A stretch of 64,000 nt of DNA from Aurantiochytrium sp. KH105 (taxonomy: Eukaryota; Sar; Bigyra; Thraustochytrida; Thraustochytriidae), in assembly GCA_003116975.1 (NCBI GenBank), contig BGKB01000044.1, positions 12,940 to 76,939 on the forward strand, in the 5' to 3' direction. Positions 27,476 to 44,225 of the stretch are shown one piece after another. The notes below the pieces were generated by a model, which did not search any database, was not told the origin of the DNA, and saw only the letters and a list, made by a program, of their open reading frames with translations. The number at the start of each line of letters is the position of its first letter. The first letter of the stretch is position 1. A program made the position numbers and the translations under genes.

Positions 27476-27492
27476 ATATCCCTATCTCAGAG
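27476..27492 (+). repeat. Left terminal inverted repeat
   Basis: 17-bp exact inverted match to 29045-29061. Confidence 0.85.
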
Positions 27493-29044
27493 CCCCATAC
27501 AAAAATAGCATATTTTTATCCTTTTAATTTTGACTAAAAGAAATTTTTACGCCGGAGTTAGCTCTACATAGTAAATAGGGATAATTTTATCCTTTTTTGG
27601 TAAAAGTAGTTAGTTGCTGACAGCGCTGGTCTTTGGTTTCTCGGTTCGCGAGCGCGAGCAGACCTTCTGCGCGCGGTGAACTTGCTGCGCCCCAAGTGTC
27701 AGGCAAGGAGACGCAGTAGCGGCTGCGCAAGGGTCTTTGGCGCTCGGCCCGCCCCTGAGAGCGGCTGACGATGGTTAAGTCTCGACGAGACGGCAAGCGC
27801 AGCTTGTCGCGCGACTCAACATCGTCGAGCGAACTTTAACCACCACGCTCAAGCGCCACAACGACGACGTCTCGCCTTACGTGTTGATACCTTGTCTGCG
27901 GCTCCTGAGACACTGTCTCGTGCAGAGACGCGGTCTCCTGCAGTGACGCACATTCTTTTCGATTCGCAGGCAACTCGAGAGGACGTGCAATCCGTCTCTT
28001 CTCAAGAAGATCAGCGCGTTCTACATGCTGCGCCTCGAGCAGAATTGCAAGGGGCTTTTGATTCACAGGCAACTCGAGATTGTGTGTCATCGGCCTCTAC
28101 TCTGGGGCACCTTGTCTCGCAGGCCACACAAGAGCGCACGCCATCGCCATAGTCTCAGGTTATTCGAAGGTTGAACGAGCCAAAGCTGCAACGTCCTGGG
28201 CCATATTTTAACGTCTATCATACAGGAAGCCTTGAAAGACAGCAAGACAGAAGTCAGTCAAACGAATCTACAGCAGCCGAGCCTCGTGTTGACAATCTTA
28301 GGCGCCTTGACGATAGCCGCGGCACCAAACGTAGTGGTATCAGAGGTGGTCAAGGACGTGACCGGTCCGGACCCTAACTTTGTCGAAATCATGCAGTCAA
28401 TCAGACCAGATTTCCCCAATTTCATCACATTCAAAAGACGGCCATTCCACCTAAGCGCAGGCTGATAAGATTGTGAGTAGTTGTCAATGGAAGCACGTAG
28501 GAAAGACCCGGGAGTTCTTCAACAAATGAAATGGCCAGCAGGTCAGACTCGACAAGTCATTGAATCACAGATCAATCTCGCTGGGTAAAAGATCTTCCTT
28601 TCAAGTCATACAGCAAATGTGCGCAAGGTGCGGTGACAACGACAAGCGAGCAAGCAAAATGTGCACAACGTGCAAGGTTCCACTGCACATCCACGTGTCA
28701 GCTCCTAATGGACCTCACTCTTGACATGATAAATGGCATATCCACTAGTTCTGCATTTCTCACCATAAATAAGCAGATATATGCTCGCCGACTTCTGAAG
28801 ACCCGGCATCGTTCATTGTCCACACCAGGATGTTTTCTGGTCATCCCTCTCCTTCTCAAGCATCAAAAAAAAACTTTTTGAGCTTGAAAAAAAGTGGTTC
28901 TACACCGTTCCACGACCTCATTTATAGCAAATACGAATAAAAATAACCTTTTTTGAAAACCCTATCAATAAGGTGGAGACTTTTCTTTTAATTAAAAAAT
29001 TTAATTGGGAATAAGCAGTAATAAGGATACTAATATCCTTGTTT

Positions 29045-29061
29045 CTCTGAGATAGGGATAT
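29045..29061 (-). repeat. Right terminal inverted repeat
   Basis: 17-bp exact inverted match to 27476-27492. A small hairpin (aaggata-ctaa-tatcctt) lies just inside it. Confidence 0.85.
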
Positions 29062-29150: not shown

Positions 29151-32100
29151 CTACACAAACGCTCCGTCGACGATTTGGAGCACATGGACCCGCCCTGACT
29201 CATCGCCGGCAACAGCAATGTTTGCATCGGATGCAACGGTCGTGATGTTCGTGTCGCTGGTGTACCCAATGCACCTACGCGAAGCGAGTGACATGTGAAC
29301 GCCGTCAAACTGTGGAATAGGTGACGCCATGTGACGCCAAATCCTCGCCCTCTGACCGATGGGCATACCGGTGTTTAGACTGAAGCTGTACACCTTGCCG
29401 TGTTCGGTACTTGCAACGACAACGCCAGCATCCAGCACAAACACCTTGCGAATCGTCGTTCTCGGATGCTCCGGATCAGTGACGGCGATGCAACTCGTCT
29501 CCACAAAACTATTTCCGGCGCGGCTCCAGATGCGCAATGTCTGGTCAAGAGATGCACTGGCAACCACGGTATCACGCAGCGTGACCGAGGTCACTGGGCC
29601 GGCATGGCTGTTGAGAACCTGAATGACGCGCCGCGTCTCCACGTTCCACAATCGGATCGTAGAATCGTCACTGCCGGACGCAAGAGCGCCTTCATGGTGC
29701 GAGATGGAGTTCACCGGAGCGGTATGACCCGTAAGCGTGAAAAGATGCTCATAAGGCGGCTCCAAGGACCACGCCCGGATGGTATTGTCGGCCGAGCCGG
29801 AATACGCACGCATGATGTCCAAGTCAAGACTGACGGTGAGAATCGAGTCGGTATGCCCATTGAAGACAACCCGGATCCTCGCGTTCTCAGTGTTCCACAT
29901 TCGCACGGTGTCGTCATCGGAACCTGAGATAATGATATTGTCACGAAACGCGATGGCGTTGACGCAATCCTCGTGGCCTTGAAGAACTTCAAGTTGGGCG
30001 CCAGTTTCCGCGTCCCACGTACGTAACGTGGCGTCGGCGCTTGCAGAGACGATCGTCGAGCCCGATATTTTGATCTTGGTGACCTCATCTCTGTGACGCT
30101 GCGCATCCCGCGTGAAGATCGTGCTGTCTTTGAAATTCCACACCTTGAGCGTCGTGTCATCACTTGAGCTGATAACAACGTCTCCCTTGAGGGTAAGCGC
30201 GCGAACAACATTCGTATGGCCCCGCATGAGGCGAATGTGCGTTTGCTCGCCAATATCCCAGATGTGCACGTACTTGTCATCTCCGCCTGACACAAGCGTA
30301 TCGCCCTGCAGCGCCAGACAGCGCACGGCGGCTCCCCTGTGCGCATCTCGAAATGAAAAGACTTCGTCTCTCGTGCTGGCATCAAAGATGACAATGTCTC
30401 CAGCAAGCGAGCCGAGGGCCACGGTACTGTCAGGGGTCGCCAGATCGATCGCCACGGCGAGCCACGCAGGGGTCTCTTTCGCAGCCACAGCAAGTGTCGC
30501 TAGCTCTTGGCCCTCAAAGGGGGACCAGATGATTGCATTCCCATCATCTGAACACGACACGAGCACGGGATAATCACCAAAGGGCTCAAGCGGGGCGCAG
30601 GCAAAGTCATTGACTGCTGAGGTGTGGCCCTCGAGATTACGCAGCACATTGCCGGAAATAGCATCCCACACGCGAATACCGCCGTCGGCCCCGCCAGAGG
30701 CAACGAGTGTGCGCATGGGCTGCTCAGCATTGGGACGGCTGCGTCGGCGGAGCATCTCGGGCCTCTGCAAGATGATGACACAGTTCACGGGCCCAGCATG
30801 CCCGAAGAGCCTGTGTCTGAGTTGGCCCGTCTCCGCGTTCCACAGGCACACCGTCCCATCGTTGTCACCACTTGCGATTAGACGGTCAAGGATATACACG
30901 GACTGCACGGGAGCGTCGTGACCTTCCATGAGGAGCTGCTCTTGCCCGGTGTCAGCGCTCCAGGTACGGATGGTATGGTCGTCCGAGCCCGACACGATGA
31001 TGTCCAAGGCGTTGCTCACGGCCCGAACTGGTGCCGTGTGGTCACGAAGCGTCTTGCGTAACGCTGCGTTCGCGCGAATAAGGACGGGTCGTACGGGCCG
31101 CAGCCACGCCTTCCTGTGTGGGGCCCAGTTGTCGTGAATGGAGGCTACGATGGGGTGTTGATCGTCAGTGATCCTTCCCAGGAGCTGTGAAGCGAGCTCA
31201 CGGGGATCCTGAATGAGCGCCTCGCCTCCCTTTTCAATGGCACGTATCACGAGGTCGCTTTGAAAACGCATAGTGCTGCCATCACCGCCCCTGCCTCTGC
31301 CTCTGCCCTCACCGTTCGGTAAGGCCCCGCGACGAGGCAGATAAAAGCGCTCAGCGTCAAGGACGAGATCGTAAAACGGTACAGCATGCTTGCCGAGCGC
31401 GCGCATAAGCCACGAAAAGTCCAGCAACAGAGGGGGCACCTTTTCAAACTGCTCGGACATGCACAAATGATAGAGGACATTCTGGTCGCCAAAGGGATGA
31501 TCGACGCTGAGACAAACCCGCGCCAGATTCAAGTGACCGTCCAGGGGCCTTACGTATAGTTCCGAGGCGCGTTCCCTCGACGTGAGGAAATCTACCATGC
31601 TCTTATGCACGAAGCCGATCTCGTCGTCGCCCACGTAGAGAAGTTGACGTGCGCGATCCAGTAATTCGTCGACTCTGTCCTCGTCAGCTTCGCCCTCCTC
31701 TCTCGGAAGCGTCGAAAGAAGCGACGAAAGAAGCTCCAGGGGAATGGGACTTCGTGAGACGGCCATGGATCCCAGCAAGACTGTGTAGAGCTCACGATTA
31801 CCGTCCAGCGCGCCATCGAGAAATCGAGAAAAGTTCTCCGTGTACATGCCATCAAGGCCGTCCGGGAATCGGTTCGTTTCCTCCCTAATCTGATTCAAGG
31901 AGACCGAACCAAGCTCCAGTTGGCTGAGCACCTCGCGGAGGAAACTCGCATAAAGAAAGAGCCCTTCGGACCGCTCTGCCATGATTTCCGCAGCCTCGTT
32001 GAGTTCGTTTGGGTTGCGCATATATGGTTTGAGTTCAACCTTCATGTACAACTTCATATCCTGCTCGTTCTCCGCGTCGCTCGTACTCACCTCGTATGGA

Positions 32101-33640
32101 TGAAAACGCTGCAAGCGGTACGGAATAATGGAGGCCGGGCGAGAGGAAATAATGAGGCCGAGCCACCGTGGCGTGTTTTCGAGCCACCGGGTCTGTAGCA
32201 GCTGCAAGAAAAGGGTTCGCTGGTCCTTTTTCGCCTCGTCAAGACCATCGATGATAAGTACGATGCGCTCTCTTGGCACGGGCGTGATTTGAGAGCAAGG
32301 ATTGGCGATGAGTGTCATAAACAACGCGTTGAGATCAAGTACGTCGCGATCGAGTTCCTGGGCGTCGAGGGTGCTGAGGTTTTCCCGCATGCCAGGAATG
32401 ACGTCCGCAAGCTGATTGGCCAAAGAGTAGAGGCACGTGCGCACCGAGGAGGCCTGATCGTCATCGTGCTTGAAGAAGTGCACTCCGCCCACCAGAATGA
32501 CGCGGCGCTCGGCATAGTATTCGTCTTCGCTCTCGCTGTCGCCATCACGAATGGAGCGAAGGCCGGGCATGCCTCGCGAGCTGGCCCTACGCATGGCAGC
32601 GCCGAGGGAGGCGCGAAGGTTGCGACCTTTACTGGACGAGCGCCTTGTCGAGCTCGCTCCGCTATTGCTGGGGCGCGACTGCGTCTCGGACCCAATCAGA
32701 GAACGCGTGCTTGTCATGAATGCAGATGGCCGGCGCACGCCGGTCTCCACATCAGGAGCAACGAGCAGACCACCGAGGTAGCACAGCCAAGCCATGATGA
32801 CGGACTTGCCGTAGCCGGCGGGGGCGAAAAGCACGAAGATTCGGTTTCGCATCCACGCCTCTCGCTCTTGGACGTACCAGCCGGCAATGCGCTCAATGAT
32901 CCAGTCGCGCGTGTTCTTGACATAATTGGCTGCCTTGTTGCGGACCATGAGGTACGGGTCAAAACCGTAGTCGAGAGGAAAGACGGCGCCGCCCTTGCGA
33001 GTCCTCACCTCACCTGTCGCCTTGTTGCGGAGCATGGTCGCGAGCGTGAAGGCTTGTTCACGCACGATCTCGTCGGAGAACAGATTAATGTGAACCTCCT
33101 CTCCCAGCACGACGCTGAGGCGCCCGGTCCAGAAGCGTCGATCCGGGACTGCGGTTTCCATGATGGCGGGGACGATGCGGTTGGGCATTTGATGCGCCGC
33201 GTGCAGGAGTTCACGCCAGCAGTTGTCGCTGCGGTCGTCGCTGTTCACCTTGGTCATGTATTGGACGGTGATGAGCGGGAGGAAGACGTCTGATCTCTCG
33301 ATGCTGCGAGCGATCCAGCTGAGCAGCTCGCCCTCGGCGTTGTACTGATCCAGAATTACGTCGAATGAGGTTCCATCTTCCAGCCTTACTTCGGCTAGCA
33401 TGTTGGCCACGACGGTCGCTCTCTCTCTCATCGTGCGACCCTCTTCATCATCCTGCCACGTGTACGAGACAAACACCGTGAGTCTCCGCGCGCGGCCTCC
33501 TCGCCGGCTGCGTCTCCGCTGCGCACGCGCGAGTCGCTGTTCGCGTCGCTGTTCGCCGCCGCGTCCCAGCTGCTCCGGGACCGTGTCTCCTTCCTCTTCC
33601 TCCTCCTCCTCCTGCAGGTGCTCATCTTCCTGCAGCTGCA

Positions 33641-33675
<35 letters not shown>

Positions 33676-33761
33676 GCCTCCCTGTTCGCCCTCGCTGTGG
33701 CCAGCAGGCCACCTTTCTGCGCCTGTTTCGTCGCGCGGCGGCTGCGTCGCCGTGTCCACAT
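29151..33761 (-). CDS. TIR-NACHT-WD40 protein (NLR-like STAND NTPase)
   Basis: 1536 residues, intronless. After a poly-Gln (CAG tract at about 33637-33677) and Glu-rich N-terminus, a TIR domain starts near residue 93 (FVSYTWQDD). It keeps the NCWRELLHA segment with the Glu equivalent to the NADase residue of catalytic TIRs (about residue 179). The NACHT NTPase follows: Walker A APAGYGKS (about 312-320, first Gly replaced by Ala), a Ser/Arg-rich insert of about 100 residues, Walker B VLIIDGLDEA (about 500) and sensor IISSRP. A helical segment ends with VHKSMVDFLTS. From about residue 905 there are 14 WD40-like blades (GHTAPV...SGSDD...IRLW), enough for two seven-blade propellers. By family, the propeller senses a ligand, NACHT oligomerises on ATP and TIR is the effector or adaptor. 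An immune role is inference. Confidence 0.93.
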
Positions 33762-40974: not shown

Positions 40975-43008
40975 CTACTTGAGACTCGTGGCAGAACCGT
41001 CGTAAATGGGCACAAAAGTGTTAAAGGCAGCCTCGCAGAACACTCCAGGGTCATTAAATCGGCGATTCCTGTTGAGCGCAGAGATTGTGCGCATCTCCTC
41101 GTCATCAAGCTGCAGAGCCACGGCCTCGAGGTTCGAAACAATGTGATCCGGATTAGAGGACTTGAAAACGGCACATGTGCCGCGCTGCAGTGCCCAGCGC
41201 AAGACGACCTGGTGTACCGTGCTGCCGTGCTTGTCTGCAATGGCCTTGACCTGCTCGTTTTGCAGAACACTATCGTCATCCGAAGCCATACCAATCTCCA
41301 CGTAACTTGCGTGGCCCAGCGGGGAAAAGGCCATAACCTTGATACCCATGGAACGCGCGTACGCGACGAGATGCTCTTGGGTGTTGAGCGGGTGAAGCTC
41401 GACCTGGAGAACGGCGGGAGGGAACTTGGCATAGGCCATCATGTCACGCAGCAATTGCACAGAGAAATTGCAAACACCAATAGCGCGCGCGCGCCCGCTC
41501 ACCACCTCAGCCTCCATGTAGCGCCACGTGCGTTCGATGGGAATGCGTGCGAGCTCCACGCGCGGGTTTTCGGCGTCTGGGTCATAGAACCATTCCGGTG
41601 GGTAGCGCTTTTCGAAAGGGACAAATTTCTGAGGAATCGGAAAGTGGATCATGTACAGATCGACGTAGTCAAGCTGAAGGTCTTTGAGCGTCTTGGTCAG
41701 CGCAGAAGGCACCTTGTCACCATGGTAGGTGTTCCAAAGTTTGGAGACCACAAAGAGATCCTCACGGGTTACAATGCCTTCGCTGATGGCCTGGCGAATG
41801 CCGTCGCCCACCTCCTTTTCGTTGCCATAGTCGCACGCACAGTCAAGGTGACGGACTCCCGCCTTGATGGCCTTGAGCACGATCTCGGCAGTCACATCCT
41901 TGGGCAGCTTCCAAAGTCCGAAACCGAGCCGTGGCATAAAGGCGCCGTTGTACAGGCGGTCAAGAACGGGCGTGCCAACGGCCTTGGCCTCGAGCTCCTT
42001 GCTGCTGGCAAAGGTGCCAGCAAGCGGGACGCGTCCCACGGATGCCAAAACACGCCGCGGTGACGAGTACGTGTTGCGCGAGTGCATCGCAACGCGATTG
42101 TCCACAATGATTGCGTCGCCCTTTCGCCACGGTACGCAGACGCGCTCGCGGTGCATAAAGTCCGCGACGGCCTCGAGCGCCTCTGATTGAATGTAGGTAC
42201 CATCGCCGTACATGACGGCCTTGGTCGGGTCGTTGCGGCTATCGACCCAGCCCTTGAAGGCGGCGACGATGGAGTTAAAGAACACCTTGGTGCCAGGGGA
42301 TCCTGGCTCGCCACGAACGCCTGGGACAATGTTGGTCACATTGCGGAGGTCTCCGTTCGGGAGCCATTCCCACTCGTGGCCCATCTCGCGCATCTTGGCC
42401 TCAGCCTCGGCCTTGTTGCTCACGAGAAAGGTATTTTTCCACGAGCGTCCGATCGCTGACGATTCGTCGTCTTCCTCTGGCATGACTCGTGCGTATTTCA
42501 CGCCGAGCTCCTCGACCTTGTGCGCGGCCTCGGGGAACTTCTGCTCGAAGAAGGACCAAACTTTGCGCGAAAGGATGAGCGGCGTCTCACCACCGCTCTC
42601 GGGCGCCACCTCGCAGTAGAACATGACATAGTCGGGGGGATTGCTCACCTGAGCCATTTCGTGGTGAAAGGGGATTGGCTCGCTCGGAGGCGACTCGTTG
42701 GCAGTAAATACATAGTCGCCAACAATGTTGCGGCGCACGGCGGCCCCGCCCACGTACGGCATATTCTCGAGATCGAGGCTCTGAACGACCTCTCCAAAGT
42801 CTTCAGGTTTCTCGATCGCAAAGCCGCGAAGCAGCACGGCTCCGTGCTGACGCGCCAGCTCACGCACCAGGTCGCGCTGCGCCGCGACGGTCTCCGCGGG
42901 TTTGCTCTTGCTCGCCTCGGACGCCGGTCCCAGCGTCAGCGGGAACACCTTGCCGTCCTCGATCTTGGCGGCATCGTTGGTCACCTCCACGAACCCGCTG
43001 CCCTCCAT
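40975..43008 (-). CDS. Bifunctional fusion: TauD/TfdA-type Fe(II)/2-oxoglutarate dioxygenase plus aldo-keto reductase
   Basis: 677 residues in one frame. Residues 1-330 are a TauD-family domain: RELARQHGAVLLRGF, Fe ligands in FHHEMAQ (His and Glu, about 115-118), distal His in DNRVAMHSRNTY (about 308) and Arg in RRVLAS for 2-oxoglutarate. Residues 345-677 are a complete aldo-keto reductase: LGFGLWKLP, the Asp and Tyr of DCACDYGNE (about 390), Lys of SKLWNT (about 420), His of YMIHFP (about 452), then VCNFS, QVELHP and AVFKSS for the NADPH site. Both catalytic sets look intact. The dioxygenase could yield a carbonyl product that the reductase converts to an alcohol, but the substrate is unknown. 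The frame runs 80 codons further up to 43248 through a CCATG repeat, which is not taken as coding. Confidence 0.93.
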   Translation of the reverse strand: MEGSGFVEVTNDAAKIEDGKVFPLTLGPASEASKSKPAETVAAQRDLVRELARQHGAVLLRGFAIEKPEDFGEVVQSLDLENMPYVGGAAVRRNIVGDYVFTANESPPSEPIPFHHEMAQVSNPPDYVMFYCEVAPESGGETPLILSRKVWSFFEQKFPEAAHKVEELGVKYARVMPEEDDESSAIGRSWKNTFLVSNKAEAEAKMREMGHEWEWLPNGDLRNVTNIVPGVRGEPGSPGTKVFFNSIVAAFKGWVDSRNDPTKAVMYGDGTYIQSEALEAVADFMHRERVCVPWRKGDAIIVDNRVAMHSRNTYSSPRRVLASVGRVPLAGTFASSKELEAKAVGTPVLDRLYNGAFMPRLGFGLWKLPKDVTAEIVLKAIKAGVRHLDCACDYGNEKEVGDGIRQAISEGIVTREDLFVVSKLWNTYHGDKVPSALTKTLKDLQLDYVDLYMIHFPIPQKFVPFEKRYPPEWFYDPDAENPRVELARIPIERTWRYMEAEVVSGRARAIGVCNFSVQLLRDMMAYAKFPPAVLQVELHPLNTQEHLVAYARSMGIKVMAFSPLGHASYVEIGMASDDDSVLQNEQVKAIADKHGSTVHQVVLRWALQRGTCAVFKSSNPDHIVSNLEAVALQLDDEEMRTISALNRNRRFNDPGVFCEAAFNTFVPIYDGSATSLK

Positions 43009-44225
43009 CCTGCTCGCGCGTCTACCCGGCCTCTTCGTCCCGGTCGGTCGGTCGGTCCGTCGGTCAAGCGAACGAGCGAGCGAGCGATCTCGATCGATGG
43101 ATCGATCGATCGATTGATTGGGGTTTGCTCCAGCCAGCACGCCGCACATCACATGATGCTGTCCTTCTCGTGCCAGGTCAAGATTATCTTCACGAGGAAG
43201 AAAAAGGTCCCCAAAATCACCATGCCATGCCATGCCATGCCATGCCATGCCATACTACGCCACGCCACCACGCCACCGCGCCACGCCATGTCATTCATCA
43301 TCGAGCCATCCATCCCTCTGTGCGCGTCTCGGCGTTTTTCGCACATCGCTGCGCAAATGCGCATCGCAAAGAAAGAAGAGCTCGCTCGACCTCCGCCCGG
43401 GCTGGCTGGCCCGGCAGGCTGGCACGATGGCGCGACCGCTCCTGTCGCCTGGCACGATGGCTGCGCTTCCTCCCTTTCCTTCCTTGCTTCCTTCCTTACT
43501 TCCTTGCTTCCTCGCTTTCTTCTCGACCCGCGACGTTCTCGCGGACACCGCCCGCAGAGGTGTGCGCGTTCTCGCCCTCGAGGCTCCCCTCTCGTCTTCG
43601 TTGTTGGCGAAGCGAGCGCGATGCAAGGCGACCAAATCCGAGTCGAAAAGGAGCGCAGACTCTGATCCAAGCTCGAGGCAACCTCGCAGGCAGCAGCAGC
43701 GGCTGCAGCGGCTGCAGGAGACGCGTGCAGCAAGCAGTCAAGGCGCAGGGCGGGTTTGGTTGGGCCTCGTCGCAATGCCCTGACGCGCGAAGACCCTGGT
43801 CAAGATGAGAAGATGCCTGCAGCAAGCGACCGAGCTTCGAAGACCTCTTCAAACTCGTACAGCGGGGCCCGGCCCGACTTCCCGCTCACGCTCCACGTCC
43901 CGCTCGGCCCGGAACCAGACCGGGACGCGGCGCCCGGCGCGGCAACGCTGCGCACGGAAAACGACTCGAGCGAAAGCGCAAGTGCGGGTTAACCTGCACT
44001 TGGCTGGAAGGCCGTCTCGCCTCGAAGGCGCTAGTAAATGAGCGCAGATCGCGATCACCGCGCCCCGGTCGCGGCTCCTTCGCGCGCGCGCGAGGCGAGG
44101 CGAGGAGCGCGGGCGGGAGGCTCGGCCGCGAGGCGCTCCGGCGCGGCGCGACGCGGCGCGACGCGCCTGCCCAGGGCCCGCCCAGCGCGCCGCAGCGGAG
44201 CTCTCGGCGCGGAGGCAGCGGCGAG
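43009..44225. other. Divergent intergenic region with CATGC repeat
   Basis: Shared 5' region of the TauD-AKR fusion (-) and XPB (+). It includes (CGGT)n near 43043-43065, (GATC)n near 43092-43117, the (CATGC)n run and CTTCC-rich sequence near 43470-43510. No gene supported. Confidence 0.55.
43221..43253. repeat. (CATGC)n pentanucleotide microsatellite
   Basis: Six tandem CATGC units plus a partial unit, followed by degenerate CACGC units. Because five is not a multiple of three and the unit lacks stops, it opens spurious frames on both strands (MAWHG repeats on minus). Confidence 0.95.

Follow-up and report, generated by a model that had tools for sequence, protein, structure and literature searches.

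Most of the known diversifying repertoires of intracellular NOD-like receptors (NLRs) come from plants, animals, fungi and bacteria. Here we analyse a candidate receptor gene of this kind from the unicellular thraustochytrid Aurantiochytrium sp. KH105, in which an N-terminal TIR domain, a NACHT-type NTPase and C-terminal WD40 repeats are encoded in one frame. The gene lies in a stretch of 64,000 nucleotides, hereafter the window, which corresponds to positions 12940-76939 of contig C44 in an assembly of 76.0 Mb and 367 contigs. It resembles the HNWD/NWD NLRs HET-D, HET-E and HET-R of Podospora anserina, where a NACHT is likewise followed by WD40 repeats. In HET-D/E the repeat codons 7, 9, 25 and 27, around the conserved codons 8 and 26, are positively selected and map to the top surface of the propeller in a homology model (PMC1805685). 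A later study of HET-D/E/R used 10, 11, 12, 14, 30, 32 and 39 as the diversifying positions (PMC12222747). The effector differs, being HET in Podospora and TIR_2 here, and HET has itself been described as a remote TIR relative (PMC4986451, PMC10197012, PMC9153377).

Similar domain sets occur in other lineages. The red alga Chondrus crispus has 58 NB-WD40 (nucleotide-binding-WD40) genes, 23 of them with TIR; the available text leaves the NB type unstated and does not mention blade diversification, whereas here the NTPase is of the NPHP3_N/NACHT type (PMC7145615). Cyanobacterial TIR-STAND (signal transduction ATPases with numerous domains) and WRAP WD40-STAND proteins share the TIR, the STAND ATPase and recently amplified WD40 blades, and a role in bacterial immunity has been proposed for them, but their functions are split over two coupled genes (PMC9218822). 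Reports of highly repetitive WD40 proteins come chiefly from bacteria and fungi but include some protists as well (PMC5587647). Plant TIR-type NLRs such as RPS4 also place a TIR effector on a STAND switch; they carry NB-ARC and leucine-rich repeats (LRR) rather than NACHT and WD40, and the RPS4 TIR chains match the TIR profile of the present family weakly (E 0.044). A first-pass annotation made from the sequence alone had seen in the gene a strong candidate for an undescribed defence system, which is too strong as a statement of kind because TIR-NB-WD40 and NACHT-WD40 receptors have been published (PMC7145615, PMC4986451). Each ingredient is already known and it is their combination that looks new in this lineage; the titles and abstract openings of the papers listed, typically 10 to 25 out of as many as 1,944 matches and with few subscription journals among them, yielded no labyrinthulomycete description of these genes or of the combination.

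The window gene and its TIR-NACHT family

The gene is a single unbroken ATG frame of 1536 codons without an intron on the minus strand (window 29151..33761), as were all features described below for this gene, and its other allele has the same layout. The TIR domain spans residues 92-250 (33012..33488). PF13676 TIR_2 matched residues 86-254 alone at E 3e-7 with 31.4 bits (cut-off 28), and the longer stretch 86-921 gave 26.3 bits, which is below that cut-off. The NTPase has a Walker A motif APAGYGKS at residues 313-320 (32802..32825), a Walker B motif IVLIIDGLDE at residues 500-509 (32235..32264; from sequence reading and the family alignment) and the motif LGLIISSRP downstream of it. Residues 427-541 (32139..32483) match the NACHT-type STAND NTPase model PF24883 NPHP3_N above its cut-off (E 1.8e-16), with PF05729 NACHT at E 9.5e-5, under the cut-off of that model. 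The WD40 region (residues 902-1536, 29154..31058) is matched by PF00400 at E 8.1e-60 over 10 stretches; its internal conservation is low, and about 14 blades can be counted by eye, which gives room for two 7-bladed propellers. The first-pass annotation had described an intronless TIR-NACHT-WD40 protein in one 4.6-kb frame, with Walker and sensor motifs, 14 WD40-like blades, and effector, switch and sensor in one chain, and this description is confirmed. It is the layout of a STAND receptor. No HET effector domain is among the families listed for the window gene and the family members, NB-ARC is absent from the window gene and weakly matched in one of 27 members, and no LRR appears among the 25 of 49 matched families listed for the window protein, whose C-terminus is WD40.

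The glutamate of NCWRELLHA that had been read as catalytic-type is Glu184 (codon 33210..33212). Its column holds Glu in 30 of the 31 loci with an alignable TIR and Asp in the remaining one (C88), the Walker A GKS is present in all 31 aligned loci, and TIR_2 was found in 27/27 family members at E <= 0.01. When the family TIR profile was compared with PDB chains, it matched Cat1 (E 6e-6) and C. elegans TIR-1 (E 9e-4) as well as a SEFIR protein (E 2e-5). The matches to Cat1 and TIR-1 span the Glu column, whereas SEFIR and other TIR chains match the N-terminal half only. In the profile alignments the Glu184 column corresponds to the Glu of DWVHKEL in TIR-1 and of DWCWDEL in Cat1. C. elegans TIR-1 is an NAD+ hydrolase and Cat1 is a CRISPR TIR protein. 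Curated defence models gave no match to the window region at E <= 0.01; the paralog L052 matched bSEFIR at E 1.4e-5 and Avs1b at E 1.8e-5.

Inspection of the genome indicated a large family, the counts of which take in both haplotypes, so that the true gene number is lower, perhaps about half. A query of the TIR and P-loop region matched 108 places at E <= 0.001 (139/139 candidates scored). The TIR_2 profile found at least 150 places, all above the cut-off (150 of 258 candidates scored), and NPHP3_N found 80 (138/138 scored). Merging the 150 TIR_2 rows with 66 chosen of the 108 query matches (42 omitted) and joining neighbours left at least about 186 TIR places. A TIR lies within 2.5 kb upstream of at least 64 of the 80 NPHP3_N places, and 56 of these 64 have frames of 1000 amino acids or more as counted by eye; because this order recurs at so many places it is far beyond chance. 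PF25521 HTH_TANC1 is present in 26/27 members within the stretch searched, the window copy being the exception, and three copies (C35, C131 and C219) are interrupted. Ahead of the TIR, L052 (L052:4965-5369) and 19 further aligned paralogs carry a conserved segment of about 135 residues that the window gene does not have at its N-terminus. This segment is possibly a degenerate second TIR without the Glu; the profile comparison between the two was weak (E 0.0024, probability 12%), and Pfam returned for it nothing but one sub-threshold, unrelated row.

The window gene itself is a distant member. The sole other locus close to it is C122:172674-177296 with 97% protein identity, after which the best matches reach only 33-37% over the NACHT region; against 26 aligned family members the identity is 31-34%. 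As sequence on both flanks of the C44 and C122 loci is collinear and the proteins are 97% identical, the two are alleles. Between them the ratio of nonsynonymous to synonymous substitution rates (dN/dS) is 0.295 for the whole frame; part by part it is 0.143 (TIR), 0.117 (NTPase/NACHT) and 0.353 (WD40 region). The alleles are thus under purifying selection. In the family tree the pair sits on a long branch of 1.72 substitutions per site, outside the expanded clade, and the NPHP3_N profile search of the genome found no second place on C44. The copy-number expansion suggested for follow-up is therefore a property of the family, with at least 64 TIR-NPHP3_N places, while the window gene is one locus with two alleles. 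An unrelated domain in the TIR region or a single-copy housekeeping gene had been named as outcomes that would count against the proposal, and for the family we found neither.

A TIR also occurs on another switch. Two non-NACHT TIR genes were sampled, one with the order Roc-COR-TIR (L102) and one with WD40-Roc-COR-TIR (L103), in which the WD40 part is N-terminal. The TIR of L102 can be aligned with the NACHT-linked TIRs and is 23% identical to that of the window copy. The COR-A profile found 124 places (124/124 scored), 116 of them above the cut-off, and a TIR follows 0.3-2.5 kb downstream at 91 or more of the 124. Expanded Roc-COR switch genes have been proposed as candidate immune receptors in other stramenopiles, the brown algae, where the sensors are LRRs; according to the available text of that study, each unicellular species searched in the stramenopile-alveolate-Rhizaria (SAR) group, Schizochytrium aggregatum included, has at most 4 ROCO genes (PMC11378527). 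This comparison concerns the Roco set and not the window gene.

Variable codons in the WD40 blades of the paralogs

Many paralogs have WD40 arrays with a 40-residue period and high internal conservation, and the window gene is not of that kind. We collected blades with at least 24/40 consensus matches from genes with at least 3 such blades, which gave 166 blades from 20 genes among the 31 loci read; the exclusion of weaker blades biases the sample towards a conserved framework, though not towards any given column. Variability is highest in columns 5, 21, 7, 23 and 4 (3.69 to 2.40 bits), followed by column 40 at 2.2. Within the 20 genes, blades are 0.10-0.33 identical at these five sites and 0.59-1.00 elsewhere. 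In an alignment made by hand with the printed repeat, the seven Podospora positions correspond to columns 3, 4, 5, 7, 21, 23 and 30 here, and all five variable columns are among them (chance 3e-5; PMC12222747). With HET-D/E/R the paralogs share internally conserved arrays, the same hypervariable positions and near-identical blades across paralogs, and they differ in the repeat length of 40 rather than 42 residues and in their lineage. The window gene has neither the high internal conservation nor diversifying positions flanking V and D, both of which the paralogs show, and the lack of conserved arrays sets it apart from HET-D/E/R as well.

The proportions of nonsynonymous (pN) and synonymous (pS) differences were counted in 260 close pairs of blades from different genes not treated as allelic (at most 8 differences per 120 bases). 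Such counts are made without a tree, and since the blades exchange sequence a formal codon model is unsafe. The five codons gave pN 0.375 and pS 0.209 and the framework pN 0.012 and pS 0.034, so that five of 40 codons take 82% of the amino-acid changes. The variation is codon-sharp, as codons 6 and 22, flanked by variable codons, are as quiet as the framework (694 pairs). Dividing variable-site pN by framework pS gives 2.47 (1.65-4.31, bootstrap over 16 genes). In codons 4 and 5 it is the first two bases that vary, whereas the third is predominantly T in the former (117 of 166 blades) and G in the latter (114 of 166), as selection for residue change would predict. Signs of positive selection in the WD blades, which the first-pass annotation had suggested surveying, were seen at five codons of the paralogs; they do not extend to the window gene, whose blades are not hypervariable and whose alleles are under purifying selection.

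Four further pairs of loci were treated as allelic by identity alone (C51/C123, C2/C262, C59/C88 and C36/C363), with collinearity shown for C44/C122 only. The five-residue blade codes differ in 11 of 17 blades between C2 and C262, in 1 of 11 between C51 and C123 and in 1 of 6 between C59 and C88. Among 23 close presumed-allelic blade pairs the five codons do not stand out (pN 0.028, pS 0.143), but this control is weak, since pairs with more than 12 differences, and with them the diversified blades, are left out. Array spans in paralogs with a recognised C-terminus range from about 5.6 to 14.6 blade lengths, with 21.6 for C2/C262; these lengths may be distorted by assembly, and the C34 frame contains N. 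A three-blade query, with 150 of 1039 candidates scored, matched at least 148 places, and by eye all of them fall in family loci apart from C85:1830-2819. This is a fragment of a conserved WD40 array at the start of its contig, about 14 kb from the nearest TIR-NACHT match on C85.

Proposed function and competing explanations

We favour the reading that the window gene and its family are intracellular NLR-type receptors with TIR effectors, to which NAD+ cleavage and a role in defence can be ascribed by analogy, and we give it a probability of roughly 0.6. In such a receptor the C-terminal WD40 propellers would bind a ligand, which could be a molecule from a microbe or a self protein that has been altered. 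Binding would free the NACHT-type ATPase for nucleotide exchange and oligomerisation, and the clustered N-terminal TIRs could then build an active site for NAD+ cleavage or a nucleotide signal, with defence or cell death as the eventual response. Among the paralogs, a shared and homogenised blade framework, with five residues per blade diversifying, would supply a repertoire of specificities. The window gene would be a divergent, non-diversifying member that perhaps recognises a conserved ligand or works together with the variable members. More tentatively, at somewhat less than even odds, the thraustochytrid may possess an innate immune or self-recognition repertoire that mounts one TIR type on NACHT and Roco switches and combines near-identical shared blades with five diversifying codons, the code being independent of, or anciently shared with, that of HET-D/E. 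If so, the propeller recognition surface would have arisen, or been retained, on more than one occasion, and such a large repertoire in a single-celled organism would open the question of NLR immunity in protists to direct tests in a group that can be grown in culture.

Several results weigh against the receptor reading. The single-sequence TIR model is of low confidence (predicted local distance difference test, pLDDT, 61.9); it shows alternating alpha and beta elements, its best fold matches are generic rather than TIR proteins, and as a whole it does not discriminate. No sequence relatives were confirmed in the bacterial genome collection. In single genes, variable-site pN divided by framework pS ranges from 0.8 to 18.7 and is at most 1.5 in 5 of the 16, and dN/dS over the entire WD40 region is 0.24, 0.28 and 0.46 in three presumed allelic pairs. 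In the window gene, the contrast is small among the six blades that were strictly scored (mismatch 0.76 at the five sites and 0.67 elsewhere). The pS is also raised at the five codons, a rise that could be due to the way paths are counted in codons with several changes, or else to targeted mutation.

That last point leads to the explanation we hold least probable, with only a slim chance of being correct, namely that the blade pattern was not shaped by selection but by targeted mutation at five codons or by errors of assembly. The codon-sharp variation and the synonymous change raised at the same codons leave room for targeted mutation. Arrays of this type are hard to assemble, as the N in the C34 frame illustrates, and this difficulty has been pointed out for short-read assemblies (PMC12222747). 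A codon-confined pattern is, however, not expected of assembly error, and the mostly constant third base at codons 4 and 5 is in keeping with selection; the presumed-allelic control counts only weakly against this explanation. The same blades could instead serve allorecognition, the variable paralogs policing contact or fusion within the species like HET-D/E and the window gene being a relative without a role in it. Hypervariable positions and high internal conservation as in HET-D/E/R, the unlike codes of C2/C262 and the varying array spans are in line with this, but the codes are nearly kept in C51/C123 (10/11) and C59/C88 (5/6). Regular cell fusion is not known from the thraustochytrid host, and we regard this explanation as unlikely.

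For the window gene taken by itself, more weight is due to a non-immune role, for example in stress or development, as a conserved protein of signalling or scaffolding whose TIR is a protein-binding module rather than an enzyme, although we still consider this doubtful. The purifying selection between its alleles, its long branch outside the expanded clade and the presence of XPB, kinesin and dehydrogenase genes among its tested neighbours fit such a role. The gene nevertheless retains the catalytic-type Glu and both Walker motifs and is part of an expanded TIR-NACHT set, which counts against this role.

Remaining features of the gene and its surroundings

Sequence reading divides the rest of the window protein into a basic, poly-Gln and acidic low-complexity N-terminus (residues 1-91, 33489..33761), a Ser/Arg-rich insert that is probably disordered (residues 341-416, 32514..32741) and a stretch linking the NTPase and the propellers (residues 621-901, 31059..31901). 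Among the neighbours tested are an XPB-type helicase, a kinesin, an aldo-keto reductase/TauD frame and a 2-hydroxyacid dehydrogenase. The third of these, at window 40975-43248, is a single frame with matches to a TauD-type dioxygenase as well as to an aldo/keto reductase and is apparently a fusion.

Downstream of the gene, the window copy has a 1578-bp insertion (27480-29057) with 13-bp terminal inverted repeats (CCCTATCTCAGAG), which is absent from the other haplotype. Seven full-length copies, including this one, are present in the genome with 96-100% identity, and partial, more distant relatives occur on C73, C84 and C103. By these features the insertion looks like a recently active non-autonomous DNA transposon.

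The position of NACHT genes on their contigs was analysed for 59 places chosen from the 80, among them two (C242 and C355) without a TIR match. Of the 59, 37 are on contigs at least 200 kb long, and 17 of these 37 lie less than 20 kb from a contig end where 3.5 are expected; 16 of the 17 point inward. A search for the telomere repeat TTAGGG/CCCTAA in 40 short contig-end pieces, two of them all N and some not from the gene-adjacent end, gave one lone CCCTAA. The clustering may be subtelomeric or may be due to an assembly broken by repeated genes. As to the host, a universal rRNA pattern had no match. A PfaA-like polyunsaturated fatty acid (PUFA) synthase fragment with an acyl-carrier domain, which taken with the high GC and the long frames without introns fits a thraustochytrid, is encoded in the partial stretch C61:1-1500; it matched TIGR02813 at E 9.8e-65 with 218 bits, below the full-length cut-off.

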